44,702 nucleotides of DNA. Origin: Deinococcales bacterium. Lineage in GTDB: Bacteria; Deinococcota; Deinococci; Deinococcales; JAAFIG01. Position numbers and translations under genes: made by a program. Under the pieces are notes generated by a model, which did no database searches, was not told where the DNA came from, and was given only the letters and a program-made list of their open reading frames with translations. The stretch is taken from contig JANYHH010000062.1 of NCBI GenBank assembly GCA_025359505.1, positions 1-44,702 of the forward strand. The letters run 5' to 3'. Shown here in pieces: positions 23,823-44,229 of this stretch (position 1 is its first letter; each line of letters opens with the position of its first letter).

Positions 23823-23903
23823 AGGTCGTCTCAGCCAACAACCAGTTTCTCACCGCATGATGAATCAGTAAAGAGTCACTGTTCGGCTCGAGGAGATCAC
23901 CTT

Positions 23904-25721: not shown

Positions 25722-25820
25722 GAAGGCTTTGTAGAAGATCGGCAAAAGGCGAAGGGCAAAGGTAAAAAACGAGCGGCATCCAAGTGATGTTGTATTCGCC
25801 TCTCGAGATTGGTTGATGGA

Positions 25821-25899
25821 AGAGCCGATCCACCGATCTCGAGCTGAGCCGATTCACCGATCTCGAGCTGAGCCGATTCACCTACCTCGAGCTGAGCCG
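25821..25899. repeat. 24-bp tandem repeat carrying CTCGAG
   Basis: Two exact copies of GATCTCGAGCTGAGCCGATTCACC (25835-25858, 25859-25882), with partial copies on both sides, lie between the convergent SDR-fusion and flippase genes. The unit includes CTCGAG and GAGCTGAGCCG. No coding role is likely. Confidence 0.8.
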
Positions 25900-25912
25900 C
25901 TTTTGCAGACAA

Positions 25913-27864: not shown

Positions 27865-27872
27865 GACATCAG

Positions 27873-27878
27873 AGTCTA
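27873..27878 (-). promoter_or_regulatory. -10 box TAGACT of the GT2 gene
   Basis: TAGACT on the minus strand, 8 nt before the GTG at 27864. It is another near-leaderless layout and supports this start over 27909. Confidence 0.4.
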
Positions 27879-27953
27879 CAGGGTTAATCTGAGTGCGGCT
27901 CGAGATCACCAGCCCTCGCGTGGCTCGAGATAACTAACTCAGCTTGCTCGAGG

Positions 27954-27959
27954 TAATCT
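27954..27959 (+). promoter_or_regulatory. -10 box TAATCT of the RmlD-like gene (leaderless type)
   Basis: TAATCT, 7 nt, then the GTG at 27967. No ribosome site. Confidence 0.55.
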
Positions 27960-27966
27960 GGTCGGC

Positions 27967-28818: not shown

Positions 28819-29054
28819 GGCTCGAGATGCTGGTGACACGATTGGCTTTGAGATGTCGCTCGGCTGGTCAATGAATTGTTTGAAATGTGCAGTGGTCGGT
28901 GGACGAATGCGATTTCGGTTTCGACCGCCACTCGAGACAAGGCTGTGCAGAATGACATCAAAATATTTGGATGGGTCAAAAAACGCTTGGGGTTACAGGC
29001 GGGTCGGGTAAAGAACACGCGCAGCCGCTCGAGCACTTTTACTCGTGTTTAGCT
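28819..29054. other. Spacer between convergent RmlD-like and GT2 genes
   Basis: 236 bp with scattered CTCGAG sites. I see no gene, hairpin with T-run, or promoter in it. Confidence 0.5.
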
Positions 29055-29825
29055 TTAAACCTCGAGTGCGCTGTTGATGACGGTGCGGTGATTCTTCGGC
29101 GGGATCGCGCCGAGCTGGTGCTTCTGGCTGAGCGCACTGAGCAGTGCCACGCGGCGCGGCTCGAACGGATCGCGCGAGGTGTTGGCTGCGCCGCCATCGC
29201 CGCGCCAACTCATCAGCACGCCGGGCGGCTCGAGCGGGAGCAGCGGGTAGCAAGCAGAAACGCGCAGGAACCAATCCCAATCCCAGTAATTCTCGAGGTC
29301 GCGGTCGAACATGCCCAAGGTTTCGTGCAGCGCCCTCGGGTACGCCACCCCGGAGGTCAGCAGCGTGTTATCGGCGCGGAGGGACGCGGTGCTCGTCGGT
29401 GGGTCGAATGCGAGGCGCTGTGTTTCCACCCAAATGCCGTTGCGCTCTTCCTCCAGAGCGAGCCAACCCGCACGGTGAACCAAGCCAACCGTGCCGCTCA
29501 GTCGCGCCAGCACGCGCTCGAGGTGCTGCATGTCTGTCCAGCGGTCATCGTCGTCCAAGAGCTGAATCACCGCGCCCTGAGCTTGGCTGACCCCCGCGTT
29601 GCGTGCGTCCACTTGCCCCGTGCCGGGGTTCTGAAAGGCGCTTACCCGAGGGTCGTTCAGTTGTCTCGCTGCGTTTGCGCCGGAGCCATCACCGTCGTCC
29701 ACGACGATCATCTCCCAATCCTCAAAGGTCTGCTCTCGGACGTTCTCAATCGTGCGAAGGAGCAAGTCAGCGCGATTGCGCGTGGGCGTGATGAGGCTGA
29801 TGGCGGGTTCGTTCACGGCTCGCAC
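29055..29825 (-). CDS. Glycosyltransferase family 2
   Basis: 256 residues from GTG 29825 (a second GTG lies 9 nt downstream). GT-A fold: AISLITPTRNRADLLLRTIE, MIVVDDGDGSG, then QLLDDDDRWTDMQ carrying the DxD-type acidic cluster for the metal and nucleotide sugar, and NYWDWDWFLRVS. No membrane segment. It diverges from the next glycosyltransferase across a 63-bp gap. The acceptor is unknown. Confidence 0.9.
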   Translation of the reverse strand: MRAVNEPAISLITPTRNRADLLLRTIENVREQTFEDWEMIVVDDGDGSGANAARQLNDPRVSAFQNPGTGQVDARNAGVSQAQGAVIQLLDDDDRWTDMQHLERVLARLSGTVGLVHRAGWLALEEERNGIWVETQRLAFDPPTSTASLRADNTLLTSGVAYPRALHETLGMFDRDLENYWDWDWFLRVSACYPLLPLEPPGVLMSWRGDGGAANTSRDPFEPRRVALLSALSQKHQLGAIPPKNHRTVINSALEV

Positions 29826-29871
29826 GTTGCTAGAAATCTGTCAGGATTTCGTCAGCGTGCTGCATCCCACG

Positions 29872-29877
29872 TAGAAT
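29872..29877 (+). promoter_or_regulatory. -10 box TAGAAT of the 29889 glycosyltransferase gene
   Basis: TAGAAT 11 nt before the ATG at 29889, in the 63-bp divergent gap, without a ribosome site. Confidence 0.4.
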
Positions 29878-29888
29878 GCGCCCTCGAG

Positions 29889-30818
29889 ATGGAGCGCTCC
29901 CCCCTGACGATCATCTCAGTCAAGTTTGGCTCAGGGGAATTGCTGACCTGCAACGCGGCGCTTGTTCGCGCACTCAATCCAGACGCGAGTTACGAATGGC
30001 TCGTGGTGAACAACGATCACGACCGTGAGTTCGCCTCGAGCGGTGCGAGCGCGTTTCGGATGCTGCCCGGTGTGCCGCGACCCGAAGAGGCGAGAGATCG
30101 CGGCAGCGCCCATCACGCGGCGGCGATCACATCGGCATTGCAATTCGTCAGGGGCCGTTACGTGCTGCTGCTGGATCACGATTTCTTCGTGGTGAAACCG
30201 GGTTGGATGCGAGCCATCCTCGAGCACGTGACCGAAGAGAGCATTGCGTTCTTCGGCTCCGTCTGGCATCCGCGTTGGTCGTATCAACCGCGCGGCTTCC
30301 CATCGGTGCATTTCATGCTGATTGATCTGGAACAAATTGACCGCAGTGCCCTTGATTTCAGACCCGATATGAACGGGAATCGCCTCGATACCCTCATCAG
30401 CCAGCCAAATCTGCCGCTGCCTCAGGGCTTACGCACCCTGCTACAAACGGGTGCGTTCCGTGACACGGGTTGGCGCGTGCGGCAGCGCTTCATGGATTCT
30501 GGACTGTACACCGAATGCCTCGTGCCGCACGTGAATCTGGAGAGCGCACGGCGCGATGCGGAACCGCTGCACCGATTCGTGGCGCGGGTGCTGCCAAGGC
30601 TTCGCAACCCGATTCCTCGAGCGGATGAAATCACCAGTCAGAGTTTCTTGCGTGCCGATTCGCCGCTTGGATACGCGCTCGGTTGGGAGGAGTTCTTCTG
30701 GCAAGGCGTACCGTTCGGATTCCATCTCCGCAGCGTCGGCAGGCGCATCACAGATTCCGAGGCTGACTTGGCGGAACTGGATCGCTTGCTCGGGCGGTAC
30801 GCCGTCTCGAGGAGCTGA
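29889..30818 (+). CDS. Glycosyltransferase (GT2-like)
   Basis: 309 residues from MERSPLTI. The frame is open far upstream to 28971, but that stretch is antisense to the other glycosyltransferase and non-coding. The fold is GT-A-like: PLTIISVKFGSGELLTCNAA, YEWLVVNNDHD, and GRYVLLLDHDFFVVKPGW, where DHD is the metal/nucleotide motif. The C-terminal half (RQRFMDSGLYTECLVPHVNL, GYALGWEEFFWQGVPFGFHL) is not familiar. It probably acts on the same polysaccharide as the neighbours. Confidence 0.82.
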   Translation: MERSPLTIISVKFGSGELLTCNAALVRALNPDASYEWLVVNNDHDREFASSGASAFRMLPGVPRPEEARDRGSAHHAAAITSALQFVRGRYVLLLDHDFFVVKPGWMRAILEHVTEESIAFFGSVWHPRWSYQPRGFPSVHFMLIDLEQIDRSALDFRPDMNGNRLDTLISQPNLPLPQGLRTLLQTGAFRDTGWRVRQRFMDSGLYTECLVPHVNLESARRDAEPLHRFVARVLPRLRNPIPRADEITSQSFLRADSPLGYALGWEEFFWQGVPFGFHLRSVGRRITDSEADLAELDRLLGRYAVSRS

Positions 30819-30863
30819 CATGCGGCTGACGCATCGCCAGATTACGCAAGGTAGGACTGTGTG

Positions 30864-32228
30864 ATGAGCACACCACTCGAGGTCACGATCATCGGCGCGG
30901 GGTACGTCGGACTCTCCACGGCGGCCGCGCTGGCGCTCGCTGGGCATCGCGTCTGGATCGTGGAGCGCGATCCCGTGCGCCTCGAGCAACTTCGCCAAGG
31001 ATGTGCGCCGTTCGATGAACCCGGTCTCGAGGCGGTGTTGAGAGACCCTGCACTCCAGCTCTGCCCGACGCATGATCTGCGAACAGCCGTGACCACCTCG
31101 AGCGTCGTGATGATCGCCGTCGGCACGCCGCCGACGCCATCGCACGGCGTTGATCTGACGCAAGTCTTCGCGGCCGTCGAAGCGCTCGCACCGCATTTGG
31201 ACGGCACGCCTCGCGTAATCGCGGTGAAGTCCACCGTGCCGGTTGGCACGAGCGCGGGGATCGCAGAGACGCTGCGCCGCCTCGCGCCGGACGCAAGGGT
31301 CGCCGTCTCGAGCAACCCCGAATTTCTGCGCCAAGGACGTGCGCTGCGCGATGCGGTCTTCCCAGACCGCATCGTCGTCGGCGCGACTGAAGCTTGGGCG
31401 CTCGAGCATCTGCGTGCGCTGTACGAGCCATTGATTGCGGGGTCAAGCTCCGTGCCCGCCTTCTTGGAGGATCACCGACCTGCCGCGCTGATCCCGTGGT
31501 TGGCGGTCAGTCCGCGCAGCGCTGAGCTATCCAAATACGCCGCGAACGCGTTTCTGGCGATGAAAATCAGCTTCATCAACGAGATCGCCAACCTCTGCAT
31601 TGAGACCGGAGCGGACGTGGACGAGATCGTCGCGGTTTTGGAGCGGGATGCGCGAATCGGCGGTGACTTCCTGCGCCCCGGCTTGGGCTACGGCGGTTCG
31701 TGCTTTCCAAAGGACACGCGGGCACTCTCGCAGATCGCTTTGAAGGGCGGGTACGATTTTCGCCTGCTTCGCGCCGTGATCGAGGTCAACACCGCGCAAC
31801 CTTTTCGCGCCTTGGATCGTTTAGAGCGGCGCTTGGGCGATCTGCGCGGCGCACGAATCGCGGTGCTGGGACTGACTTTCAAACCCGAGACCGACGACCT
31901 GCGCGAATCGCTCGGCGTGGAAATCGCGCTTGAACTCAGCGCTCGAGGTGCGGTGGTGAGTGCCCACGATCCGGTCGCGGCGAAGGCGGCTCGAGGTTTA
32001 CTGCCAGCGGCAATTCACGTCACCAGTGACCTCGAAGATTGCGTGACGGACGCCGACGCGATCATCCTCGTGACGGAATGGGTGGCGTACCGAAATGCGG
32101 ATTGGGAGCGCCTTGGAAGCGCGATGCGGCGACGCTTGATTTTCGATGGGCGCAACGCACTGGATGCGGCGCTGCTCGAGCGGGCGGGCTTTGAATACCT
32201 CGGGGTGGGCAGAAGTCTTCCAGCCTGA
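30864..32228 (+). CDS. ugd: UDP-glucose 6-dehydrogenase
   Basis: 454 residues from ATG 30864 (GTG 30861 is adjacent). It oxidises UDP-glucose (or a similar UDP-hexose) to the uronate, a precursor for acidic polysaccharides. Motifs are VTIIGAGYVGLSTAAALAL (NAD), STVPVGTS, FLAMKISFINEIANLC, and the catalytic loop FLRPGLGYGGSCFPKDTRAL with the active Cys. VLGLTFKPETDDLRES marks the C-terminal UDP-binding domain. UDP-ManNAc dehydrogenase is a possible alternative. It ends the surface-carbohydrate block. Confidence 0.93.
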   Translation: MSTPLEVTIIGAGYVGLSTAAALALAGHRVWIVERDPVRLEQLRQGCAPFDEPGLEAVLRDPALQLCPTHDLRTAVTTSSVVMIAVGTPPTPSHGVDLTQVFAAVEALAPHLDGTPRVIAVKSTVPVGTSAGIAETLRRLAPDARVAVSSNPEFLRQGRALRDAVFPDRIVVGATEAWALEHLRALYEPLIAGSSSVPAFLEDHRPAALIPWLAVSPRSAELSKYAANAFLAMKISFINEIANLCIETGADVDEIVAVLERDARIGGDFLRPGLGYGGSCFPKDTRALSQIALKGGYDFRLLRAVIEVNTAQPFRALDRLERRLGDLRGARIAVLGLTFKPETDDLRESLGVEIALELSARGAVVSAHDPVAAKAARGLLPAAIHVTSDLEDCVTDADAIILVTEWVAYRNADWERLGSAMRRRLIFDGRNALDAALLERAGFEYLGVGRSLPA

Positions 32229-32258: not shown

Positions 32259-33086
32259 TCAATCCTCGAGCGACGCCGCGATGCGTGCCGCCGCCGCCCG
32301 TACCGCCTCGCTGTACAGCTCGCGTTTGTCTGCCGTGAGCCGCGCCGTGAAACCCGCGATGTTGACGGCCGCGACCGCCTCGCGCTTTGTATTCAGCACG
32401 GGCGCGGCGACGCTGAACTCCCCAATCGCGTAATCGTCCACCGAGACGCGCAGCCCAGCCACGCGCACCCGCTCGAGTTCGGCGCGAAGCGCGGCTTCTT
32501 TCGTCAGCGTCTTCGCGGTGAAGGCGTGGCGCTCGCGCTTCAGCAAACCCTCAAGGACGCCCGGCGGTGCAAACGCCAGCAGCGCTACACCCAGCCCACC
32601 GACGTGCAGCGGCAAGCGTGAGCCGATGTCCCAGTCCACGCGCAGCGAATGCGTTCCGACGCGGCGATCAATCACGACGCGCTCGAAGCCGCTCCGCACC
32701 GCCAGCAGGATGCTTTCGCCGGAGAGCGCGGAGAGCGCGTCCATCGGTTGCGTCGCCGCGTGCAATAACTCACGGTGGCGCTGGTCGCTGCGCCCGAGCA
32801 GCGCGATTTTCGGGCCCAGATGATAGCTGCGATCCGCGTCGCGGCTGACGTAACCGCTGCCTTCAAGCGTGGCGAGCAAGCGGTGCGTTTGGTTGTGCGT
32901 CAAGCCCGCTCTGGCGGCGAGTTCACTCATACCGAAGCCCGGCTGTTCCGCGACGGTCTCGAGCAGATGCAGCGCGGTCTGGACGGCTTGAACGCCATTC
33001 GGAGCTGGAGCAGCGGGTGGTTGGCTCGAGGCTGCTCGAGCGGCTGAACCTGAGCGCGGCTTGACTGTTTTGATTTGGGCTGACAT
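32259..33086 (-). CDS. IclR-family transcriptional regulator
   Basis: 275 residues. An Ala/Pro-rich N-terminal tail (residues 1-30) precedes a winged helix-turn-helix (about 35-95): LETVAEQPGFGMSELAARAG, LTHNQTHRLLATLEGSGYVS. An IclR effector-binding domain follows (SILLAVRSGFERVVIDRRVG, SRLPLHVGGLGVALLAFAPP, VSVDDYAIGEFSVAAPVLN). It diverges from the sugar-type ABC importer, over an AT-rich palindromic region (33118-33146) that is a likely operator. The effector may be the imported compound. PhnF, the usual GntR-type phn regulator, is absent, so this IclR could be the local regulator. Confidence 0.92.
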   Translation of the reverse strand: MSAQIKTVKPRSGSAARAASSQPPAAPAPNGVQAVQTALHLLETVAEQPGFGMSELAARAGLTHNQTHRLLATLEGSGYVSRDADRSYHLGPKIALLGRSDQRHRELLHAATQPMDALSALSGESILLAVRSGFERVVIDRRVGTHSLRVDWDIGSRLPLHVGGLGVALLAFAPPGVLEGLLKRERHAFTAKTLTKEAALRAELERVRVAGLRVSVDDYAIGEFSVAAPVLNTKREAVAAVNIAGFTARLTADKRELYSEAVRAAAARIAASLED

Positions 33087-33281: not shown

Positions 33282-34577
33282 ATGCGAGTACAACACAAAT
33301 GGATCGTCTCGAGCCTGCTGCTCACCGCTGCCCTCGCCATCGGTGCGGCGGGTCAAGCGCAAACGCCGGTGAAGATCTCGTACTGGAACATCAACACCGA
33401 AAACTTCGGCGGGCCCGCCGTGCGCGAACTCGTGCAGCGCTTCCAGCAGCAGAACCCCAGCATCACCGTGGAGCCGCGCTCGTTTCAGAACGCTTACACC
33501 GGCGTCCTTCAGGGCGTGCAGGCCGCCATCGCCGCGAACGATCCGCCGGATGTCGTCCAAGTTGGTTATCTCTACACCGATTACGTGCGCCTGAATTTGC
33601 CATTCATTCCAACGAACGATCTGGCCAAGAAGTTTAACGGCGAGAAATTTCTGATGCAGTTTCGCGCCAATATTTTGGAGCAGGGTCAAGCTGAGGGCGT
33701 GCAAGTCGGCTTACCGTACTCGCTTTCGAACACGATGGTGTATTACAACGGCGATCTCTTCAAGCAGGCTGGGCTGAACCCCGATTCACCGCCGCTCTCG
33801 TGGGCGGCGTGGCGCAGCGCGGCGAAACTGATCAAAGAGAAAACCGGGAAGTTTGGCTTGTACATCAACACCTTGGATGACAACTGGACGACCGAGGCGC
33901 TGATGGCGTCCAATGGCGGGAGCCTGCTGGGTTGCCAAGACGGGAGCGCGGTCGCGTCCTTCGACAGCCCGGCGGCTGCTGAAGCGCTCCAGACTTGGGC
34001 GGATCTCGTGAAGGACGGCTACGCCCTGAACGCGCTCGCGCCGCAGGGTGAGCAAGCCTTCCTGTCCGGCGAATCGGCTGCGTTCGTTGCCACGATTGCG
34101 AAGCGTGCCGCACTGCAAGCGAACGCGAAATTTGCGTTGAAGGGTGCGCCGTTCCCGCGCTTCGGCACGAAACCCACGCGCTTGCCGGGCGGCGGGAACG
34201 TGCTGGCGGTGTTCAGCAAGGACGCCGCGAAGCAGGAAGCCGCGTGGAAGTTCATGCAGTACCTGACCTCGCCCGAGGGCTTCACCGTCTGGACGAAGGG
34301 CACGGGTTACGCGCCGCTGATTCGCGGCCTCGACCGTGACGCGAAGTATCTCAAAGATTTCGTCGCGCAGAACCCAATGCAGCGCATCGGCATTCAGCAG
34401 CTCAGCAACGTCTTTCGCTGGACTGCTTTTCCCGGCGCGAACGGCCTCGCCGCTTCGCAAGCACTCTTCAAAGCTACGCAGCGCGTCCTCGGTGGGCAGG
34501 CGAATGCCAAGGACGCGCTCGCGGCAGGTGCGGCGGAAGTCAATAACCTTATCAAGGGCGAGAAGTGCAAGAAGTAA
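33282..34577 (+). CDS. CUT1-type ABC substrate-binding protein
   Basis: 431 residues with GGAGG before the ATG. A signal peptide covers about residues 1-27 (SSLLLTAALAIGAAGQAQ); no lipobox Cys. The mature part is a family-1 solute-binding protein (UgpB/MalE-like): VKISYWNINTENFGGPAV, LPYSLSNTMVYYNGDLFKQA GL, DNWTTEALMASNGG, TSPEGFTVWTKGTGYAPL. Such proteins bind sugars, polyols or glycerol-3-phosphate (di)esters. Its location ahead of phn genes suggests a phosphorus-bearing or glycosylated ligand. It overlaps the next gene by 13 nt. Confidence 0.92.
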   Translation: MRVQHKWIVSSLLLTAALAIGAAGQAQTPVKISYWNINTENFGGPAVRELVQRFQQQNPSITVEPRSFQNAYTGVLQGVQAAIAANDPPDVVQVGYLYTDYVRLNLPFIPTNDLAKKFNGEKFLMQFRANILEQGQAEGVQVGLPYSLSNTMVYYNGDLFKQAGLNPDSPPLSWAAWRSAAKLIKEKTGKFGLYINTLDDNWTTEALMASNGGSLLGCQDGSAVASFDSPAAAEALQTWADLVKDGYALNALAPQGEQAFLSGESAAFVATIAKRAALQANAKFALKGAPFPRFGTKPTRLPGGGNVLAVFSKDAAKQEAAWKFMQYLTSPEGFTVWTKGTGYAPLIRGLDRDAKYLKDFVAQNPMQRIGIQQLSNVFRWTAFPGANGLAASQALFKATQRVLGGQANAKDALAAGAAEVNNLIKGEKCKK

Positions 34578-35521
34578 GCCCAGACGAAACAAAGCAGCTC
34601 GAGGGAGCGCCGCGCACTGCGGCGTTCCCGTTTCGCACGAACGACTCGAGGCTCGAGATAGCGCCGTATTTGTTGCTGCTGCCCGCGATGACTGCGCTTG
34701 GGTTGTTCGTGTTCGGGCCGCTGGTGCAGACGCTTTGGATCAGTTTTTTCGAGTGGAACCTCGTGAACCCAGCGCGGCGATTCGTTGGCTTGGAGAATTA
34801 CGCGGCGATTGTCGGCGACGCGGGGTTCCTCGGGATGATCGCGCAGAGCTTCGCGTACATGGGACTGGCGCTGATCGGCAACCTCGCCCTGCCGGTTGGA
34901 CTGGCGCTGCTGACGCTGCAACTCTCGGAGCGCGAGGCGGAACTGTTTCAGAGTTTGCTGTTCGTACCCGCCGTGGTCGCGGTTTCGGTCGGGGTGCTGG
35001 TGTGGTCGTGGTTTTACCTACCCGCCGGGGGCTTGTTCAACGTGGCGCTCGAGGGGCTGGGCTTGCCGAAACCCGCTTGGCTGAACGATCCATTCTTGGC
35101 GCTGCCATCGGTGTCGCTCGCGGCAAACTGGAAGTTTCTGGGCTTCAATTACCTGATCGCCCTCGCGGGACTGCGGGCGATTCCCCGCGAATACCTCGAG
35201 GCGGCCCGCGTGGACGGCGCTGCGGGCGTGTTTTTGCTGCGGCGAATCGTGCTGCCGCTGTTCGGCCCGAGTGCGCTGTTTTTACTGGTCAGCACCCTCT
35301 TGCAATCCTTGGAGCAAGTCTTCGTGCCGATTGAAGTCCTGACCGTGGGCGGCCCGGCGGGCGCGACGACGAACCTGATGTACGCGGTCTACCAGGAGGG
35401 CTTCAAGTTCTTTCGCGCGGGTCGCGCCGCTGCCGAGAGCGTCCTGCTGATCGGCTTGTTCGCTGGACTGATCGTCTGGCAATTCCGACTCTTCGAGCGG
35501 CGCGTGACCTATGAGCGCTAA
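34565..35521 (+). CDS. CUT1-type ABC permease (UgpA-like)
   Basis: 318 residues from a GTG that overlaps the binding-protein gene by 13 nt. Six membrane helices are expected, e.g. ISPYLLLLPAMTALGLFVFG-like IAPYLLLLPAMTALGLFVF. The EAA loop, which contacts the ATPase, is EYLEAARVDGAAGVFLLRRI. It is the first of the two permeases of the importer. Confidence 0.92.
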   Translation: MQEVSPDETKQLEGAPRTAAFPFRTNDSRLEIAPYLLLLPAMTALGLFVFGPLVQTLWISFFEWNLVNPARRFVGLENYAAIVGDAGFLGMIAQSFAYMGLALIGNLALPVGLALLTLQLSEREAELFQSLLFVPAVVAVSVGVLVWSWFYLPAGGLFNVALEGLGLPKPAWLNDPFLALPSVSLAANWKFLGFNYLIALAGLRAIPREYLEAARVDGAAGVFLLRRIVLPLFGPSALFLLVSTLLQSLEQVFVPIEVLTVGGPAGATTNLMYAVYQEGFKFFRAGRAAAESVLLIGLFAGLIVWQFRLFERRVTYER

Positions 35522-36365
35522 AACCGCTCGAGCACCGATCTCCAAAGCCAGAAGCGGCGTCTGGCTGGCTCGAGTGGCGCTGAGCATCGCCGCGCTGCTG
35601 ATGTTGCTGCCGCTGATTTATCAACTCGGGCTGAGCTTCAAAGCGCCAGCGGATATCTTCGTGAAGCCGATCAATCCGCTGCCCGCCAATCCGACCCTCG
35701 AGAATTACGCGACGGTGATTGCGGCGCTGCCGCTCGGGACGTATTTGCTCAACAGTTTAATCTTCTCCCTCGGCGTGACCTTCGGGCAGATCGCGCTGGC
35801 GATCCCGGCGGCATACGCGCTCGCCCACGCACGCTTCGCGGGGCGACGCTTGGCGCTGGCGCTGGTGATGCTCTCGATGACGGTTCCCTTCGTCGTGACC
35901 TACATCCCAAATTACCTGACCGTCGCGGGTTGGGGACTGATCGGCACATTGCCCGGCATGATCCTGCCGCTGATCGGCAGCGGCTACGGAATTTTCTTGC
36001 TGCGGCAACACTTCGCTACTTTTCCCACTAGCATTCTCGAGGCAGCCAGAGTGGACGGCGCGAACGTGCTGCAAACGCTGTTCCTCGTGCTCGTGCCCGC
36101 GAACCGTGCGGCGATCACCAGCCTGTTCGTGTACCTGATGATTGCGAGTTGGAACCAACTGATCTGGCCGCAACTGATCGGCTCGCGCCAATCGGCGTAT
36201 ACGCTGACCGTTGGCGTGCAGAGCTTTGCGAGCGGTGAGGGCGGCAGCAGTTGGGGGCCGATGATGGCGGCCGCGACCCTCGCCAGCCTGCCGACGGTGC
36301 TGACCTATCTGCTCGTGCGGCGCGGCTTACTGGCGACCTTCAGCGACGGCGCGGTCAAGGGCTGA
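35511..36365 (+). CDS. CUT1-type ABC permease (UgpE-like)
   Basis: 284 residues; its start overlaps the previous permease by 11 nt. Six helices, with VALSIAALLMLLPLIYQLGL first and the EAA loop SILEAARVDGANVLQTLFLV late. Together with the upstream two genes it forms an importer. No sugar-type (MalK/UgpC) ATPase gene accompanies it; a shared ATPase elsewhere in the genome, or PhnK/PhnL, would have to power it. Confidence 0.92.
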   Translation: MSAKTARAPISKARSGVWLARVALSIAALLMLLPLIYQLGLSFKAPADIFVKPINPLPANPTLENYATVIAALPLGTYLLNSLIFSLGVTFGQIALAIPAAYALAHARFAGRRLALALVMLSMTVPFVVTYIPNYLTVAGWGLIGTLPGMILPLIGSGYGIFLLRQHFATFPTSILEAARVDGANVLQTLFLVLVPANRAAITSLFVYLMIASWNQLIWPQLIGSRQSAYTLTVGVQSFASGEGGSSWGPMMAAATLASLPTVLTYLLVRRGLLATFSDGAVKG

Positions 36366-36390
36366 CAGGATTCAACGCTTGAAAGGACTC

Positions 36391-37242
36391 ATGACAACAC
36401 TACTTTTCATCGGCGACATCGTAGGCGAACCCGGATTGCGATTCCTCGAGACGAACCTTCCCGAACTGATCCAGATGCACAACGCAGATTTCGTGATCGC
36501 CAACGCCGAAAACCTGCATCTCGAGGATCACCCGAACGGGCCCTGCGGCATGACAGCTTCAGCGTTGGCGCGGCTCTTCGCGGCGGGTGTGCAACTCGTC
36601 ACGGGCGGCAATCACTCTTGGGACGGACCCGAGGGCGCGACCGTTCACGACGACCCGCGTGTATTGCGCCCCCTCAACGTCAGCTCGAGTACGCCCGGAC
36701 GCGGCGCGGGCATCGTCAGCTCGAGGGGTGGCGTGCGGCTTGGCGTCGTCAACCTCGCGGGGCGGAGCGCAATTCCAACGGTGATTGACCCGTTCCCCGT
36801 GCTCGAGGCGCAACTTCAAATCTGGGGCGTCGGTACGGATACCTCGAGCGTGGACGCGGTGTTCGTGGATCATCACGGGGAGAGCGTCTTCGAGAAGGTC
36901 ACATTGGCGCACGCCTTCAGCGGACGAATCGCGGCGCTCGTGGGGACGCACACGCACGTCCCGACGATGGATGCTGGACTGCTGCCGGGCGGCGTGGCGT
37001 TCGTCAGCGATGTCGGCATGACCGGCCCCGGCGGCGGGGCGCAGGGCTACGACCCAGCCTCGTTCGTGCAGAACCTGCGCTTTCCAAACGACGCACGAAC
37101 GCCAATGCGCTTGGCGAGCGGCGCGGTGGAACTCGGCGCGGTGCTGATTCGACTCGAAGGCGGCAAAGCGGTTGGCATTGAACGCGTCAACCTGCAACAG
37201 AGCGCCGTACAACCGAGCGCAATCCTCGAGTTGACCCGTTAG
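36391..37242 (+). CDS. YmdB-family metallophosphoesterase
   Basis: 283 residues from ATG 36391 with AAAGGA 6 nt upstream; the TTG at 36379 contains that site. This is the TIGR00282/YmdB family of dinuclear-metal phosphodiesterases, some of which act on 2',3'-cyclic nucleotides. Metal motifs are FIGDIVGEPG, VIANAENLH, TGGNHSWDG and LVGTHTHVPTMD. Here, downstream of an importer and upstream of C-P lyase genes, it could hydrolyse an imported phospho- or phosphonate ester. It follows the second permease by 25 nt. Confidence 0.9.
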   Translation: MTTLLFIGDIVGEPGLRFLETNLPELIQMHNADFVIANAENLHLEDHPNGPCGMTASALARLFAAGVQLVTGGNHSWDGPEGATVHDDPRVLRPLNVSSSTPGRGAGIVSSRGGVRLGVVNLAGRSAIPTVIDPFPVLEAQLQIWGVGTDTSSVDAVFVDHHGESVFEKVTLAHAFSGRIAALVGTHTHVPTMDAGLLPGGVAFVSDVGMTGPGGGAQGYDPASFVQNLRFPNDARTPMRLASGAVELGAVLIRLEGGKAVGIERVNLQQSAVQPSAILELTR

Positions 37243-37812: not shown

Positions 37813-38259
37813 GTGAAGGACGCATCAGAGGGTTTCGATCAATCCACCGCGCTCGGTCTCACGGCGACCGCATCGCCCGACGCGGTGAAGGCACTCGCGG
37901 AGACGTTGCTCACGGCGCTCGAGGATTCGGGCACGCCGCTGACGGTCGTGGAGAACCGCACGGGCTTGGTGATGCTGCCCTACCGCGACACCGTTCACGG
38001 CAGCCTGTTTCACGTCGGCGAAGCGCTGATCGCGGAAGCGCGGGTGCGTCACGGCTCGCTCGAGGGTTACGGCGCGTGTCTCGGGCGCGACCTCGAGTTT
38101 GCGCTCGGGATGGCGATTGTTGACTTGGCGTTCCAGAGCGGTTTGCTGCGCGATCAGGTGCAGGCGTTTCTCGAGGCGGCGGCGGCGGATGATGCAGCTC
38201 GACAGGGCGCATTGTTCGCGCAGGTCGAGGCGACGCGTGTGCAGATGGAAACCTTCTGA
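37813..38259 (+). CDS. phnG: C-P lyase subunit PhnG
   Basis: 148 residues from a GTG. PhnG is a core subunit of the PhnGHIJ complex that converts alkylphosphonates to ribose-1-phosphonate-5-triphosphate. Family-typical segments are VVENRTGLVMLPYRDTVHGS, LFHVGEALIAEARVRHG and GYGACLGRDLEFALGMAIVD. It is followed by phnH with a TGATG overlap at 38257-38261. The N-terminus is slightly longer than usual. Confidence 0.93.
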   Translation: MKDASEGFDQSTALGLTATASPDAVKALAETLLTALEDSGTPLTVVENRTGLVMLPYRDTVHGSLFHVGEALIAEARVRHGSLEGYGACLGRDLEFALGMAIVDLAFQSGLLRDQVQAFLEAAAADDAARQGALFAQVEATRVQMETF

Positions 38260-38837
38260 TGTCGCCGATTAACACTGCGCCCGTCCAAACGCCGCTCGAG
38301 GCTCGAGCACACGCGACCTTCGACGCCCTGATGCGAGCACTGTCCTATCCGGGTCGCCCGCAAACCCTGAAGCTCGAGGATGGACGAACCGCGTTCGCGG
38401 CGATTGCCGAAGCGCTGCTCGATCTCGAGGTGACAGCGTTTAGCACTGAACAATCGCTCGAGGCAGATTTGCGGGCCACGGGTGCGAAGCTCGTCTCGCT
38501 CGAGCGTGCCGAATACGTTTTTATGCCGCATCTGACCGAAGCTCAATTGCCGCTGCTCCAGCGCGTCAACCGAGGTTCGACGCTGACGCCGGACGACGCG
38601 GCGACCCTCGTGATCGGCGCGAGCTTCGCTGAGGAATCCCTCGAGCCAGCGCAACGGTTGCGGCTGCGCGGCCCCGGCATTCAAGACTCGCTCGAGGTAC
38701 GGATCGGCGGTTTGCCGCTCGAGTTCTGGCGCGTCCGCGAAGCGGTTATCGCATTCCCGATTGGCTGGGATGTCTTCTTCGTATCGGGCAATCAGATTCT
38801 CGGACTGCCCCGCACGACAATCGTGGAGGTGCTCTAA
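38259..38837 (+). CDS. phnH: C-P lyase subunit PhnH
   Basis: 192 residues. PhnH is a structural subunit of the C-P lyase core complex related to PLP enzymes but without PLP. Typical parts are FDALMRALSYPGRPQTL near the start (F-R-x-L-M-x-A-x-x-x-P-G pattern), LRLRGPGI and PIGWDVFFVSGNQILGLPRT near the end. Its ATG overlaps the phnG stop by one base. phnI follows with no gap. Confidence 0.93.
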   Translation: MSPINTAPVQTPLEARAHATFDALMRALSYPGRPQTLKLEDGRTAFAAIAEALLDLEVTAFSTEQSLEADLRATGAKLVSLERAEYVFMPHLTEAQLPLLQRVNRGSTLTPDDAATLVIGASFAEESLEPAQRLRLRGPGIQDSLEVRIGGLPLEFWRVREAVIAFPIGWDVFFVSGNQILGLPRTTIVEVL

Positions 38838-39935
38838 ATGGCTTACGTCGCAGCTCGAGGTGGCGAGGCGGCGATTCTCGAGGCGGAACGCTTGTATAAA
38901 GTGATGCTCGGGCCGCTGGGAATGGCGCAGGTGCGAATGCTGACCGATCACCTGCCGTACCTCTTGGACCGCGTGATGGGTGAGGCTTCGCTGTACGCGC
39001 CGGAGTTGGCGGCGCTGGCGGTCGCGCAGACGGGCGGCGATCTGTACGAGGCGGTGCTGCTGCTACGCGCGTACCGCAGCACCCAACCGCGACTGGCCTA
39101 CGCCGCGCCGATAGAGCAGGACGCGATCACCACCGTGCGCCGCGTCTCAGCGGCGTTCAAGGACATTCCGGGCGGGCAAGTCTTGGGCCCGACGCTCGAT
39201 TACAGCCACCGGATGCTCGAGATGAACGTGCTGCGCGGTCAACCGACTACGACGAACTCGAGCGTTGATGTCTCGAGCACCGTGTCCTCGAGTCCCACGG
39301 TCTTTCCAGCGCTCGCGGCGTGGCAACGCCAAGCGGGATTGCTGCCCGAGATCACGGCGGACACGACGACGCCAGATGAAATTCCCGACGTGACCCGCGA
39401 ACCGCTGCTGTTTCCCGTCTCGAGATCGCACAAACTCCAAAGCTTGGCGAGGGGCGACACGGGCGGGATTCTGGCGCTCGGCTACGCGAACATGCGCGGC
39501 TACGGCGCGGTGCATCCGACGATCAACGAGGTGCGCCTCGGGTACGCCGACGTGATCCTGACGCACCCGGTCACGGGTGTGCATTTCAGCGCCGGGCAGG
39601 TGCGCGTGTCCTCGGCAGAGATCGTCACGAACTTCGCGGGCGATCCGCACGATCCGCGCTTGGAGCTGGGTTTCAGCGCGACCCTTGGCTGGAACGAAGT
39701 CAAGGTCATCGCCGCTTCGATGCTGGACTTGAGCATGGGAAAAGCCGGGCACGCCTCGCAGACGCCGGAATTCGTGCTGTACCACACCGAACCTGTGGAG
39801 AGTTCGGGGTTCTGCATTCATTTCAAGCTGCCGCATTACGTGACCTTTCAGAGCAGTCTCGAGGCGATGCGCGGCGTCAAGCAACTCGAGCGTGCGGACG
39901 ACCTGCTCGAGATGGCAGAAAAGGTGGACGCGTGA
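38838..39935 (+). CDS. phnI: C-P lyase subunit PhnI (nucleosidase)
   Basis: 365 residues. PhnI, with PhnG and PhnH, attaches the phosphonate to C1 of ribose triphosphate using ATP or GTP. The start MAYVAARGGEAAILEAERLY and the block GDTGGILALGYANMRGYG, VHPTINEVRLGYADV, GWNEVKVIAASMLDL and HYVTFQSSLEAMRGVKQLER are family-typical. A short Ser/Val insertion (SSVDVSSTVSSS, near residue 140) looks added by CTCGAG-rich DNA. It overlaps phnJ by 4 nt (GTGA). Confidence 0.94.
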   Translation: MAYVAARGGEAAILEAERLYKVMLGPLGMAQVRMLTDHLPYLLDRVMGEASLYAPELAALAVAQTGGDLYEAVLLLRAYRSTQPRLAYAAPIEQDAITTVRRVSAAFKDIPGGQVLGPTLDYSHRMLEMNVLRGQPTTTNSSVDVSSTVSSSPTVFPALAAWQRQAGLLPEITADTTTPDEIPDVTREPLLFPVSRSHKLQSLARGDTGGILALGYANMRGYGAVHPTINEVRLGYADVILTHPVTGVHFSAGQVRVSSAEIVTNFAGDPHDPRLELGFSATLGWNEVKVIAASMLDLSMGKAGHASQTPEFVLYHTEPVESSGFCIHFKLPHYVTFQSSLEAMRGVKQLERADDLLEMAEKVDA

Positions 39936-40867
39936 GCCGCTTGTCTGAACTGACGCACGACTGGCAGGATCACAGCTACGCCTTTCTGGACGAGGCCAGC
40001 AAGCGCGAGTTGCGCCGCAAAATCCTCAAAGCCATCGCCATTCCCGGCTATCAAGTGCCTTACGCCTCGAGAGAAGTGCCGATGGCTCGAGGCTGGGGGA
40101 CGGGTGGTTTGCAGGTCACGCTGACTTTGGTCGCGCCGCACGACACGGTGAAGGTGATTGACCAAGGCGCGGACGATTCGGTCAACGCCGCGAACATCCG
40201 GCGCTTTATCGCTCGAGTCGCCGGAGCAGCGACCACCACCGACACATTGCGCTGCACGCTGCTTCAGAGCCGCCACCGCATCCCGGAAGAACGGCTGCTC
40301 GAGGGGCAAATTCTGATTTTGCAAGTCCCGGAACCCGAACCGCTGCGCGGCGTGGAGACCAGCAGCGCGGCGTCGGCGGTGCTGCACGCCGACGCCGATT
40401 ACGGCTTGATGTGGCTGAGCTTGTACGAGCAGATCGTGCGCCACCGCCGCGTGATCCTCGGCGCGAGTTACCCGGTGATGGTCGGCGGGCGCTACATCAT
40501 GGCTCCCAGCCCGATCCCGCGCTGGGACGTGCCGATGCTGCATCAAGCAGCGCATCTGACGATCCTCTCCGCCGGGCGCGAGAAGCGGCTCTACGCCGTG
40601 CCGCCCTACACGGACGTGCGCCCACTGGAGTTTGACGACGTGCCGTTTCGCATCGAAGATCAGGGAGGGGAAGTCTGCTACCGCACCGGAGCGGGTCACA
40701 AGTTCCTCAACGAACTCCCGCAGGACGACGGCTCGAGCCGCTTCGAGCTGAGCGACAGCGGCTACGGCGAGAAACTGCTGCGACGACAAGCGGGCGAAAC
40801 GGTCGAGATCGGCGCGACCTATTACGACGAGCGCGGAGGCTTTTATCATGACGACCTTCTCCGCTGA
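39932..40867 (+). CDS. phnJ: PhnJ-like C-P lyase subunit lacking the Fe-S/thiyl cysteines
   Basis: 311 residues. PhnJ is the radical-SAM enzyme that cleaves the C-P bond. The N-terminal two-thirds are clearly PhnJ: KAIAIPGYQVPY (Gly39, the glycyl-radical position, Gly32 in E. coli), ARGWGTGGLQVTL, KVIDQGADDSVNAANIRRF, SRHRIPE, MAPSPIPRWDVP, AGREKRLYAVPPYTDV. But the cysteine region is degenerate. E. coli has CAIC...VCSDTDYC (Cys241, 244, 266 for [4Fe-4S]; Cys272 thiyl). Here it reads CYRT...ELSDSGYG: Cys249 is kept, the others are Thr252, Leu273 and Gly279. The frame is intact through the region. Overlaps phnI by 4 nt and phnK by 20 nt. It cannot use the known mechanism unchanged. Confidence 0.88.
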   Translation: MSRLSELTHDWQDHSYAFLDEASKRELRRKILKAIAIPGYQVPYASREVPMARGWGTGGLQVTLTLVAPHDTVKVIDQGADDSVNAANIRRFIARVAGAATTTDTLRCTLLQSRHRIPEERLLEGQILILQVPEPEPLRGVETSSAASAVLHADADYGLMWLSLYEQIVRHRRVILGASYPVMVGGRYIMAPSPIPRWDVPMLHQAAHLTILSAGREKRLYAVPPYTDVRPLEFDDVPFRIEDQGGEVCYRTGAGHKFLNELPQDDGSSRFELSDSGYGEKLLRRQAGETVEIGATYYDERGGFYHDDLLR

Positions 40868-41690
40868 CTTTTCCACTCGAGCCAGCCAGCCGCCCATCCA
40901 GCTCGAGCCGCCGCGCCTCGAGATCGCGCAACCGATTCTCGAGGTGCGCGACCTCAACAAGTCCTACGGTTCTGTGCGTGCGCTCGAGGAGGTCAGTCTG
41001 GAGTTGTACCCGCGAGAAGTCCTCGGCGTCGTCGGCGAGAGCGGCAGCGGCAAAAGCACCTTGCTGCGCGTGCTGAATCTCGAGGAGCAACCCGAGGGCG
41101 GCGAGTACCATTTGGGCATCCCGCCGTATGAGGGACGCAACCTGCTTCAGCTCGAGCGCTTCGAGCGCCGGGCATTGCGCGTCAAGCACATCGGCATCGT
41201 CTATCAAAATCCGCATCTGGGACTGCGGATGAACAACACCTCGAGCGGCAACGTCGCGGAGCGCCTTGTGATCGCCGGAGAGCGCCGCTTTCACGCGCTG
41301 AGAGCCGCCGCGCGAGGCAGCCTAGAGGTCAGCGAATTTCCGATCTCGCGCATGGATGACCCGCCCAGAAAACTTTCCGGCGGAATGCAGCAACGCGTGC
41401 AACTCGCCAAGGCGATTGCGTTGAAACCTGCATTGCTGCTGCTGGACGAACCGACCACGGGTCTTGATGTCAGCGTGCAAGCGCTCGTGTTGGATACGCT
41501 GCGCCGTCTGCAACGCGACCTTGGGATTGCGATGCTGGTCGTCTCGCACGACCTCGGCGTGATCCGCACCCTTTCAGACCGCGTGGTCGTGATGCGTCAC
41601 GGTCGCGTTGTCGAAAGCGGACTGACCGATCAAGTGCTCGAGGATCCGCAGCACCCGTACACGCAGCAACTCGTCCACGCGAAACTATGA
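40848..41690 (+). CDS. phnK: C-P lyase ABC-type ATPase PhnK
   Basis: 280 residues; starts within the end of phnJ (20-nt overlap). An ABC ATPase without membrane partner that binds the C-P lyase core complex at PhnJ. Motifs: Walker A GESGSGKST, Q-loop IVYQNPHLGLRMN (the PhnK-type loop), signature LSGGMQQRV, Walker B LLLLDEPTTGLD, switch His in LVVSHDLGV. About 30 extra N-terminal residues (Pro/Gln/Leu) precede the usual PhnK start LEVRDLNKSYG, so translation may start further downstream. It could in principle also energise the sugar-type importer, but PhnK is not known to do so. Confidence 0.93.
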   Translation: MTTFSADFSTRASQPPIQLEPPRLEIAQPILEVRDLNKSYGSVRALEEVSLELYPREVLGVVGESGSGKSTLLRVLNLEEQPEGGEYHLGIPPYEGRNLLQLERFERRALRVKHIGIVYQNPHLGLRMNNTSSGNVAERLVIAGERRFHALRAAARGSLEVSEFPISRMDDPPRKLSGGMQQRVQLAKAIALKPALLLLDEPTTGLDVSVQALVLDTLRRLQRDLGIAMLVVSHDLGVIRTLSDRVVVMRHGRVVESGLTDQVLEDPQHPYTQQLVHAKL

Positions 41691-41700
41691 AGGGCAGCTA

Positions 41701-41722
41701 TTAGCCGTTAGCTCTTGGCTAA
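41701..41722. other. Hairpin between phnK and phnL
   Basis: TTAGCC (41701-41706) pairs with GGCTAA (41717-41722). The only spacer in the phnG-phnM series. It could adjust expression of phnL relative to phnK. AAAGGAGA follows as ribosome site for phnL. Confidence 0.4.
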
Positions 41723-41740
41723 ACGCTCAAAGGAGATTCA

Positions 41741-42469
41741 GTGATTCTCGAGGTTCAGGGCTTAACAAAGCGCTTTGCGTTGCACGAGTTGGGGCGCACG
41801 GTGGATGCGTTCGCGGACTTGGAGTTCACATTGAGCGCGGGGGAGTTTTTGCTCGTAGCGGGTGGGAACGGCGTGGGCAAGAGCACCTTGCTGCGAACGC
41901 TTTACCGCACCTACCGCGCCTCGAGCGGGGCAGCGTTTTACAACAGTCATCGCGGGCGGATTGATCTGACGCGGGCGGCGGACGTGGACATCGTGCTGCT
42001 GCGGCGCGAGGAGCTGGGGTTCGTGACGCAGTTCCTGCGCCCGCGACCTCGAGTCAGCGCTTTGGAATTGGTCGCGGAACCGCTGCTGTTCGCAGGCGTG
42101 CGTCAGGAGGAGGCGTTGCGGCGCTCGAGTGAATCCCTCGAGTTATTCGGCTTGAAGCGCGAACTCTGGGAGGCGTACCCGAGCACCTTCAGCGGCGGCG
42201 AGCAGCAGAAAGTCAATTTGGCAAGGGCGCTGATTCAGCCGCGCCGATTACTGCTGCTGGACGAACCAACCGCTTCACTGGACGCGACGGCTCGAGCCGC
42301 ACTGCGCGAACGTTTGGCGGCACTCAAAGCCGAGGGCATGGCGATGATCGGCGTGCTGCATCACCCGGAGGACGCCACAGGCTTGCTGGATCGAGAGATT
42401 CGCTTGGAAGCCCCAAGCGGCTCAGACGCACGACTGCTCGAGGCGCTGGAAGCGGACTATGTGGCTTAG
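41741..42469 (+). CDS. phnL: C-P lyase ABC-type ATPase PhnL
   Basis: 242 residues from GTG with AAAGGAGA before it. A second non-transport ABC ATPase of the pathway that stacks on PhnK in the C-P lyase complex. Motifs are Walker A GGNGVGKST, FVTQFLRPRPRVSALELV (Q-loop and PhnL-typical RV/ISALE), signature FSGGEQQKV, Walker B LLLLDEPTASLD and a GVLHHPED switch. It overlaps phnM by 11 nt. Confidence 0.94.
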   Translation: MILEVQGLTKRFALHELGRTVDAFADLEFTLSAGEFLLVAGGNGVGKSTLLRTLYRTYRASSGAAFYNSHRGRIDLTRAADVDIVLLRREELGFVTQFLRPRPRVSALELVAEPLLFAGVRQEEALRRSSESLELFGLKRELWEAYPSTFSGGEQQKVNLARALIQPRRLLLLDEPTASLDATARAALRERLAALKAEGMAMIGVLHHPEDATGLLDREIRLEAPSGSDARLLEALEADYVA

Positions 42470-43631
42470 CGACGTGCGGCTGGTGCTGCCGGATCGCGTC
42501 CTCGAGCGGGCGAGTCTGAGGATTGATGGTGGACGGATCGCGGAGCTGCGCGACGGGCCCGTGCCGCATGCCGACCTGCACGGAACAGGGCTGACCGCGA
42601 TTCCCGGCATCGTGGATTTGCACGGCGATATGTTGGAGCGCGAGATCGAACCGCGTCCCGGCGCGGCGTTCCCGATCAACATGTCGCTGTTCGAGTTGGA
42701 CAAGCGCCTCGCGGCGGCGGGCGTCACGACCGCCTACGCCGCGATCTCGTTCTCCGAACACCGCGCCAATCACCTGCGAAGCGAGGAACGTGCCAAAGAA
42801 ATTGTCGAAGCCGTCGGTGCGTGGCGCGGGTCGCTGCTGACGGACTTTCGGATTCACGCCCGCTTCGAGATCACCAATCCAAGGGCTGCCCCGGTGTTGA
42901 AAGACCTCATCGAGCGCGGCCTCGTGGATCTCGTGTCGCTGAACGACCACACGCCCGGTCAGGGGCAGTACCGCGACCTCGAGCAATTCATTCACTACGT
43001 TTCCACGTGGCAGGGCAAAACCCGTGCCGAGGTCGAAGCCAACGTGCGCGAACGCATGGCGCGTAGCCGTGACGCACCGCCGAGCTGGGCGACGATTGCG
43101 GAGGTCACAGCGCTCGCGCTCGAGGCGGGTTTCTGCGTCGCCTCGCACGACGATGACAGCCCGGAAAAAGTCGCGCTCGTACACAGCGTTGGTGCAAGCC
43201 TCTCCGAATTCCCGGTGACGCTCGAGGCGGCCTGCGCTGCCCGCGATGCCGGAATGCGGGTCATCATGGGCGCACCGAACGCGCTGCGCGGTGGTTCGCA
43301 CAGCGGCAACCTCTCTGCCATCGCCGCGCTCGAGGCGGGCGCATTGGACATCTTGGCGAGCGATTACTACCCGGCGGCGATGCTGCAAGCCGCGCTCTGT
43401 CTGCACCGCGATCACGCGCTGCCGCTGCATCGTGCGATCAACCTGATCAGCCTGAACCCCGCAAACGCTGTCGGTCTGCACGATTGCGGCAGCCTCGAGC
43501 TGGGCAAGCTGGCGAACCTCGTGCTGCTCGATCACGGGCATCACTGGCGCGTCGCGGCTACCCTGCGCGAGGGACGCGTCGTGTACTGGGCGGGTCATCC
43601 CGTGCTGCGTCACGGCGCGGTGTACGCGTGA
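42459..43631 (+). CDS. phnM: RPnTP diphosphatase PhnM
   Basis: 390 residues. PhnM, of the amidohydrolase fold, removes diphosphate from ribose-1-phosphonate-5-triphosphate to give the substrate of PhnJ. Motifs: AIPGIVDLHGDMLEREIEPR (metal HGD), VSLNDHTPGQGQYRD, FCVASHDDDSPEKV, MGAPNALRGGSHSGNLSA and ILASDYYPAAML. All are family-typical, so this enzyme looks active, in contrast to PhnJ. It overlaps phnL by 11 nt and the next gene by 4 nt (GTGA). Confidence 0.95.
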   Translation: MWLSDVRLVLPDRVLERASLRIDGGRIAELRDGPVPHADLHGTGLTAIPGIVDLHGDMLEREIEPRPGAAFPINMSLFELDKRLAAAGVTTAYAAISFSEHRANHLRSEERAKEIVEAVGAWRGSLLTDFRIHARFEITNPRAAPVLKDLIERGLVDLVSLNDHTPGQGQYRDLEQFIHYVSTWQGKTRAEVEANVRERMARSRDAPPSWATIAEVTALALEAGFCVASHDDDSPEKVALVHSVGASLSEFPVTLEAACAARDAGMRVIMGAPNALRGGSHSGNLSAIAALEAGALDILASDYYPAAMLQAALCLHRDHALPLHRAINLISLNPANAVGLHDCGSLELGKLANLVLLDHGHHWRVAATLREGRVVYWAGHPVLRHGAVYA

Positions 43632-44229
43632 AGCTCACAGCAGCGCCGACCCTGCACCCCACCGCGCAGATTGTGAACTCCAATCTGGGCGCGTGGACGT
43701 TCGTCAGCCACGACACGACGATCACCGACTCGAGCCTCGGCGATTACAGCTACGTGATGCAGCACAGCCAGATTATGGGCGCGGAGATCGGCAAGTTTTG
43801 CAGCCTCGCCAGCTTCGTGCGCCTCAACCCCGGCAATCACCCCTTGGAGCGCCCGAGTTCGCACCACATGACCTACCGCGCCATGCAGTACGGTTTCGCG
43901 GACACCGACGATCTGCCGTTCTTCGCGAGGCGCATCCGGTTCGCATCGGGCACGATGTCTGGATCGGGCACAACGTCACCGTGCTGCCCAGCGTGACGAT
44001 TGGCAACGGCGCGGCGGTTGGCGCGGGCGCGATTGTCACGAAGGACGTGGCGGCGTACACCGTCGTCGCGGGCGTGCCCGCCAAACCGATTCGCCGCCGC
44101 TTCAGCGAAGCCGTCTCCGCGCAGCTCGAGCAAATCGCGTGGTGGAACTGGACACGCAGTGAACTCGAGATGCGGTTTCTGGATTTCCGCGATATGGATG
44201 CGTTTCTGGAGAAGTACGGAACAGAATAA
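43628..44229 (+). pseudogene. Phosphonate-type hexapeptide-repeat transferase, frameshifted
   Basis: Two frames together make one protein of about 200 residues, of the transferase hexapeptide family that accompanies phn operons (TIGR03308-like). The first part (GTG 43628) runs GDYSYVMQHSQIMGAEIGKF, LNPGNHPLERPSSHHMTYR to FFARRIR. The second, in the frame starting around 43942, runs RIGHDVWIGHN, VTIGNGAAVGAGAIVTKDV, VAGVPAKPIRRRF and ends at 44229. One base appears to be missing near 43940 (CGG TT CGC). No programmed-shift signal is seen. A sequencing error or recent mutation are both possible. The reading without the shift stops at 43996. Confidence 0.8.

Follow-up and report, generated by a model that had tools for sequence, protein, structure and literature searches.

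The phn operon and its PhnJ

The window analysed here, positions 1–44,702 of contig JANYHH010000062.1 (read on the forward strand), comes from the Deinococcales bacterium GCA_025359505.1, a 127-contig draft genome of 4.23 Mb and 91.8% completeness. It carries an operon for carbon–phosphorus (C-P) lyase, a phosphonate-degrading complex, phnGHIJKLM (37813–43631), in which PhnJ lacks three of the four cysteines of the iron–sulfur cluster and thiyl sites. Successive frames overlapped or lay at most 50 bases apart, and PhnG, H, I, K, L and M were all encoded in full-length frames, as the initial annotation had held. The operon retained the residues of the core complex, namely the PhnI zinc ligands His219, His328 and His333 and the PhnJ contacts Arg107, His108 and Gln124 (Escherichia coli numbering, used hereafter unless window residues are named).

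The window PhnJ scored 405 bits against the PF06007 profile (cut-off 25) and was 47–49% identical to the PDB chains of E. coli PhnJ, placing it in the PhnJ family. Its residues C249 (TGC, 40676–40678), T252 (ACC, 40685–40687), L273 (CTG, 40748–40750) and G279 (GGC, 40766–40768) aligned with E. coli Cys241, Cys244, Cys266 and Cys272, the last of which we take to be the thiyl radical site. The initial annotation, which had Cys241 retained and the other three replaced by Thr, Leu and Gly, proved exact once codons were read and aligned to E. coli. Of the residues that mark a radical-type C-P lyase, the four cysteines thus read C/T/L/G, and the glycyl-radical Gly32, also annotated as kept, was present as Gly39. 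A canonical phnJ elsewhere in the genome, with this copy decaying, had been raised as well; only one copy, and no second phnJ, was found in this 91.8% complete genome.

Table 1. Features of the phn region in the window.
Feature	Coordinates	Strand	Basis
IclR-type regulator, divergent from importer	32259..33086	-	PF01614, PF09339
CUT1-type importer: solute-binding protein and two permeases, overlapping frames	33282..36365	+	Pfam for binding protein and first permease; second permease by similarity to loci only
Second YmdB-type phosphodiesterase, candidate opener of ribosyl cyclic phosphate	36379..37242	+	PF13277 219.7 bits, over gathering score
phnG	37813..38259	+	PF06754 61 bits, over cut-off; TIGR03293 below cut-off
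phnH	38259..38837	+	PF05845 118 bits; TIGR03292 over cut-off
phnI; zinc ligands His226/His328/His333 (E. coli 219/328/333) kept; clade-specific Cys326 and Glu318 adjoining	38838..39935	+	Profile and alignment
PhnI Cys326 codon, two residues ahead of zinc ligand His328	39813..39815	+	Codon reading
phnJ, cysteine-poor type, 311 aa, GTG start	39932..40867	+	Open reading frame, PF06007 profile, PDB alignment, clade comparison
PhnJ Gly39 (E. coli Gly32, reported radical site), kept	40046..40048	+	G in 205/205 aligned rows
PhnJ Arg114-His115 (E. coli Arg107-His108, ribosyl cyclic phosphate contacts per PMC9947105), kept	40271..40276	+	R and H in 120/120 cysteine-poor rows
Stretch of the lost cluster, CYRT...ELSDSGYG	40676..40768	+	Codon reading
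phnK, longest start, 20-base overlap with phnJ	40848..41690	+	Best NCBIfam match TIGR02323 PhnK, below its cut-off
phnL	41741..42469	+	Best NCBIfam match TIGR02324 PhnL, below its cut-off
phnM	42459..43631	+	TIGR02318 404.5 bits, over cut-off
Hexapeptide transferase (phn_thr-fam) after phnM, split over two frames in this assembly	43484..44229	+	NCBIfam, frame analysis

A clade without the radical cysteines

A protein search scored 7,999 candidates and returned 7,947 homologues, and none of the 120 listed had cysteine at position 244, 266 or 272. The PhnJ alignment comprised 205 rows (179 distinct), the E. coli and window proteins included; 85 rows (81 distinct) were canonical and 120 (98 distinct) cysteine-poor. 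All four cysteines occurred in the former and none of the last three in 119 of the latter. The sole intermediate was the PhnJ of Bradyrhizobium glycinis (L070, 10001–10894), with Cys at 241 and 272 and Ser and Leu at 244 and 266. The two groups were defined by these cysteines, so the contrast at those columns exists by construction, which is not so for the two-peaked distribution or for the trees. The position of Cys241 was occupied by Asp in 10 of the 120 cysteine-poor rows.

In a PhnJ tree of 76 rows (38 of 116 cysteine-poor and 30 of 78 canonical locus rows, the window and seven plasmid rows, with the intermediate omitted), the cysteine-poor sequences all fell on one side of a single branch, with a Shimodaira–Hasegawa-like approximate likelihood ratio (SH-aLRT) support of 100. 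The same split was obtained without the residues from 238 on (SH-aLRT 94), and it matched those in the trees of PhnI (76 rows, 99) and PhnK (78 rows, 100), all of these being quick trees without bootstrap and with long branches on some canonical rows. The operon therefore appears to have been inherited as one unit. PhnJ ranked with the most constrained of the operon's proteins, with ratios of nonsynonymous to synonymous substitution (dN/dS) of 0.022–0.102 in six pairs, although dS was near saturation (1.68) in the pair formed by the window and L007.

The radical mechanism against which these residues are read is taken from PMC9947105 and PMC10574752 and not from the original paper. According to PMC9947105, 5-phosphoribosyl-1,2-cyclic phosphate sits at the zinc site of PhnI His328 and His333 (joined by His219 in the open state), and the ribosyl cyclic phosphate is held by Arg107, His108, Gln124 and loop 47–50 of PhnJ, with the cluster cysteines and Gly32 elsewhere. 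Gly32, Gly47, Gly49, Arg107 and Gln124 were invariant in the 85 canonical and 120 cysteine-poor PhnJ rows, and His108 was kept in 203 of 205 (120/120 cysteine-poor). In PhnI, His328 and His333 were invariant in 83 canonical and 114 cysteine-poor rows, and His219 was absent from one canonical row. As judged from these alignments, the loss is selective: the radical cysteines are gone, and Gly32 and the zinc and ribosyl-phosphate residues are kept.

PhnI also differed between the groups close to the zinc ligands. Residue 318 was Asp in 83/83 canonical rows and Glu in 109/114 cysteine-poor ones, and residue 326 was Cys in 110/114 cysteine-poor rows vs 1/83 canonical. The four cysteine-poor rows without Cys326 were Thermus-type, and in the PhnJ tree such rows formed the first branch inside the clade, which suggests that the loss of the PhnJ cysteines preceded the PhnI changes near zinc. 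Cysteine-poor PhnJ was also extended at its C terminus, less so in Alphaproteobacteria and Thermus, and the added segment bore a Gly-x-Thr-x-Tyr motif (93, 94 and 87% of the 120 rows).

Among 111 genomes of Deinococcota, cysteine-poor PhnJ was found in 11, canonical PhnJ in three and a marginal match in one. Matches occurred in 37 of 400 Chloroflexota genomes (12 read as cysteine-poor, 18 as canonical, and seven unread at 338–389 bits, at or below canonical scores) and in 65 of 385 Alphaproteobacteria (two cysteine-poor, 28 read as canonical, 35 unread); each of the two cysteine-poor alphaproteobacterial genomes also had another copy, with a score in the canonical range. Because at most five candidates per genome were scored in many cases at this first look, additional copies may have been overlooked. 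Named carriers included Thermus thermophilus plasmids, Deinococcus species, Oscillochloris, Rhizobium, Salipiger mucosus and Thalassovita, and a few metagenome-assembled genomes labelled as other phyla, whose labels may be wrong, also carried the gene.

Copy number was examined at the loci of the best 80 of at least 566 relatives from a genome scan. The cysteine-poor copy was the only PhnJ match in 29/29 genomes with non-alphaproteobacterial loci. Among the 51 loci labelled Alphaproteobacteria, 48 genomes held an extra full-length PhnJ with 70–78% identity to that of E. coli; four cysteines were present in all 23 second copies that were read (L088–L110), and the other 25 were classed as canonical-range by identity alone. 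Two of the remaining three genomes had no second copy, and the third, Marivita SBSPR1, had canonical-like fragments only. In its assembly (G965, contig C11, 76816–77604 and 89823–90200), the one full-length PhnJ match was cysteine-poor and lay about 12 kb from two canonical-like fragments, which may reflect decay or an assembly fault. PMC8774927 reports a full methylphosphonate pathway for this organism.

Gene neighbourhoods

The phn-adjacent YmdB protein of the window had the YmdB phosphodiesterase 4b2o as its best PDB match and scored about 170–171 bits against TIGR00282, below the curated cut-off of 254. It is the divergent one of two YmdB/TIGR00282 paralogues in the genome and lies behind the importer; the other, on another contig (G000:C74:2860–3612), scored 251 bits, just under the cut-off. 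The importer matched sugar-binding 7bvt in the PDB, then UspB/UgpB, and no ATPase gene was seen beside the importer genes. Downstream of phnM, the hexapeptide transferase frame breaks near 43935, where relatives have a single frame of about 210–220 aa; this may be a sequencing error or decay. The region 5' of these genes (22638–32228, + strand) encodes, as identified by Pfam, a group 1 glycosyltransferase and a fusion of a sugar-nucleotide epimerase with a short-chain dehydrogenase; a frame at 30861–32228 (+ strand) looked like a nucleotide-sugar dehydrogenase, as judged by eye only.

Neighbouring genes were compared by tblastn in 84 cysteine-poor loci (the 80 scan loci, three on plasmids and the one in the window), many of them truncated by contig ends. 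PhnM was found in 75/84, a hexapeptide transferase in 49/84 and phnC-like ATPase matches in 64/84, the ATP-binding cassette (ABC) matches being ambiguous. CUT1 genes preceded phnG without an intervening phnF in nine loci, the window and eight rhizobial or other alphaproteobacterial ones, seven of which also had a PfkB-type kinase; a few further loci had CUT1 genes ahead of phnF. The Rhizobium-type loci L038, L041, L045, L046, L050, L052 and L058 combined the CUT1 importer and the kinase ahead of phnG with no phnCDE match after phnM, hinting at a sugar-like substrate. The transporters of most operons suggest anions resembling phosphonate or phosphite, and those of some suggest solutes akin to sugars or glycerophosphate.

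Canonical and cysteine-poor operons were paired in 20 of 23 alphaproteobacterial genomes holding both, within 8.6 kb. Canonical vs cysteine-poor counts were 9 vs 2 for PhnN, 17 vs 8 for the hexapeptide transferase, 13 vs 19 for PhnM, 16 vs 14 for phnC-type genes, 0 vs 4 for a CUT1 binding protein and 0 vs 6 for PfkB, so that operons coexisting in a cell differ in the genes around them.

Phosphodiesterase genes of several families were found in or near cysteine-poor operons. A calcineurin-type phosphoesterase directly followed phnK on the same strand in L009 (9630–10385), L018 (11782–12594), L026 (11736–12491) and L043 (2228–3019), with phnL next in the three loci long enough. DUF1045 followed phnM in three operons (L065, L072 and L120, from Phyllobacterium, Microvirga and Mesorhizobium), where DUF1045 and PhnN came directly after phnM, as in complete pathways. 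A 2H-type gene was near four operons, on the same strand in one; its Pfam match, run on one of the four, was weak (28.3 bits vs a cut-off of 27). These neighbours fit a cyclic phosphate product and are not proof of one.

Proposed chemistry, alternatives and relation to known systems

We propose tentatively, with a probability of about 0.4, that in the clade's complex, which is without three of the four cluster and thiyl cysteines, the ribose 2'-OH attacks phosphorus at the zinc site without radicals and so frees the phosphorus compound. By analogy with the E. coli pathway, PhnI with PhnG, H and L would put the phosphorus compound in place of the base of ATP, PhnM would strip pyrophosphate, and ATP turnover by PhnK would open the core. 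The radical step would be absent; zinc and PhnJ His108 (window His115) would help the 2'-OH attack phosphorus, expelling the other substituent heterolytically and yielding 5-phosphoribosyl-1,2-cyclic phosphate. The expelled group could be an alkoxide, amide, thiolate or stabilised carbanion, not methane. Because this group must depart heterolytically, the complex would handle unactivated alkyl phosphonates (methylphosphonate, for example) poorly and would be unlikely to form methane. A cyclic phosphodiesterase would then open the ring, a role predicted in the window for the second YmdB copy. The initial annotation had left a dead PhnJ and different chemistry side by side; the latter is favoured because the zinc and ribosyl-phosphate residues are kept, purifying selection is strong and PhnI has changed beside the zinc. 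A broader version is doubtful: a second catalytic mode of C-P lyase, in which a zinc enzyme gated by ATP, with PhnI Cys326 newly acting as zinc ligand or nucleophile, would cut a P-C or other P-heteroatom bond on the ribosyl carrier without iron–sulfur, S-adenosylmethionine (SAM) or radicals, and which gene transfer would have carried through Deinococcota, Chloroflexota and Alphaproteobacteria.

Several observations weigh against radical-free release. The PhnI change is not universal, since Thermus-type PhnI keeps Asp318 and has Ala326, and the AlphaFold PhnI model is unreliable at residues 317–339, which leaves the nearness of Cys326 to zinc a matter of sequence position. Most of the 84 loci have phnCDE-type transporter matches, and in Thermus the binding protein is similar to phosphite/phosphonate binders; the substrate may thus be an ordinary phosphonate, with a C-P bond that resists heterolysis. 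For simple phosphate esters, so ATP-costly a route seems wasteful. The IclR–CUT1–YmdB neighbourhood that the initial annotation suggested looking for across the clade was mostly not there: YmdB adjoined the operon in 2/84 loci, the window and Thermus thermophilus SNM7-6 (with a CUT1-type permease, on the other strand), CUT1 genes stood before phnG with no intervening phnF in 9/84, and most loci had phnCDE-type transporter matches. Among the phosphodiesterase genes, DUF1045 counted 18 vs 2 in the paired canonical and cysteine-poor operons, and three of the four 2H-type genes were on the opposite strand.

A catalytically dead but structural PhnJ, docking PhnK and completing the pocket while the complex performs only the PhnI transferase or nucleosidase step and supplies ribosyl-phosphonate or ribose 1-phosphate for salvage, modification or detoxification, is a less probable explanation. 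It is consistent with the retention of PhnI and PhnM, with transport genes that differ among operons, and with conservation of the PhnK-docking acid Asp229 (120/120 cysteine-poor rows) and of Tyr158 (114/120); yet the docking acids 226 and 228 are often non-acidic in the clade, PhnJ is itself strongly constrained, and the His108/Arg107/Gln124 pocket, kept in 120/120, is more than docking alone requires. Somewhat less probable still is ordinary C-P cleavage by another cofactor or metal, or by the retained Cys249 with the zinc site, in which case single-copy organisms would live on phosphonates and may release alkanes. The phnCDE-type transporters, the shared fold with E. coli PhnJ, the conserved zinc site and the lack of any other PhnJ in the 29 non-alphaproteobacterial genomes speak for it. 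Against it stand the replacement of Cys241 by Asp in some rows and the SAM-dependent, strictly anaerobic C-P cleavage reported for E. coli in PMC9947105 and PMC10574752. A search of open reading frames around 81 loci for CX3CX2C, without other radical-SAM motifs and without a search for an activase elsewhere in the genome, gave seven matches, none recurrent in the operon.

That last result bears equally on the idea that a separate activase generates the glycyl radical on Gly32 in trans, as in pyruvate formate-lyase, making the cis cluster unnecessary. The invariance of Gly32 in 120/120 rows would agree with such an activase, but the glycine falls within a stretch conserved in both groups, for which a structural role suffices, and Cys272, presumably the thiyl site, is also gone; we regard this as very improbable. 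An assembly error, pseudogene or decaying copy could be suspected from the split hexapeptide transferase next to the operon and from the 127-contig draft. This reading is refuted by the clade-wide pattern, which extends over all 120 listed homologues, named isolates and plasmids with dN/dS of 0.02–0.10, and its residual probability is negligible; the assembly error allowed for in the initial annotation is ruled out by the same recurrence. The cysteine-poor PhnJ is neither an error nor a product of decay.

According to PMC9947105, the cluster site of E. coli C-P lyase lies about 30 Å from Gly32, which is 31 Å from the zinc in the open state, and how cluster, Gly32 and zinc cooperate is described as unsettled. 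The cysteine-poor clade offers a natural separation of function, having lost the cluster but retained the zinc site, with changes around the ligands, which makes the role of each directly testable. It also matters for annotation: cysteine-poor proteins carry the database name 'alpha-D-ribose 1-methylphosphonate 5-phosphate C-P lyase', and phnJ counts get read as capacity for methane release from methylphosphonate, for which this PhnJ would be a poor marker.

The complex itself is of a known kind, and a clade without the radical centre is undescribed as far as our literature searches reach. Compared with the E. coli core Phn(GHIJ)2 with PhnK/PhnL (4xb6, 7z15–7z19), the window PhnJ lacks Cys244, Cys266 and Cys272, PhnI has Cys326 and Glu318 where E. 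coli has Val and Asp, and the cysteine-poor PhnJ bears the C-terminal extension with its Gly-x-Thr-x-Tyr motif. The downstream PhnP and PhnN of the E. coli-type pathway were not recovered in the window's own genome (91.8% complete), with no PhnP match at E 0.001 and a best PhnN score of 50 bits vs a cut-off of 156. According to PMC10574752, 2H-type phosphodiesterases (rcsF) occur in phn operons lacking phnP, and the family can hydrolyse ribosyl-1',2'-cyclic phosphates; the four loci with a nearby 2H-type gene resemble these, and no such gene was found in the window. Its second YmdB copy matches YmdB/TIGR00282 phosphodiesterases (B. subtilis-type YmdB 4b2o, Thermus TTHA0625) over residues 8–272 of 287, but unlike them it scores below the TIGR00282 cut-off and lies between a CUT1-type importer and phnG. 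PhnH is a cluster-free PhnJ homologue of the same complex, and the window operon has its own PhnH; unlike PhnH, the cysteine-poor protein aligns to E. coli PhnJ over nearly its full length, C-terminal domain included (model 10–287).
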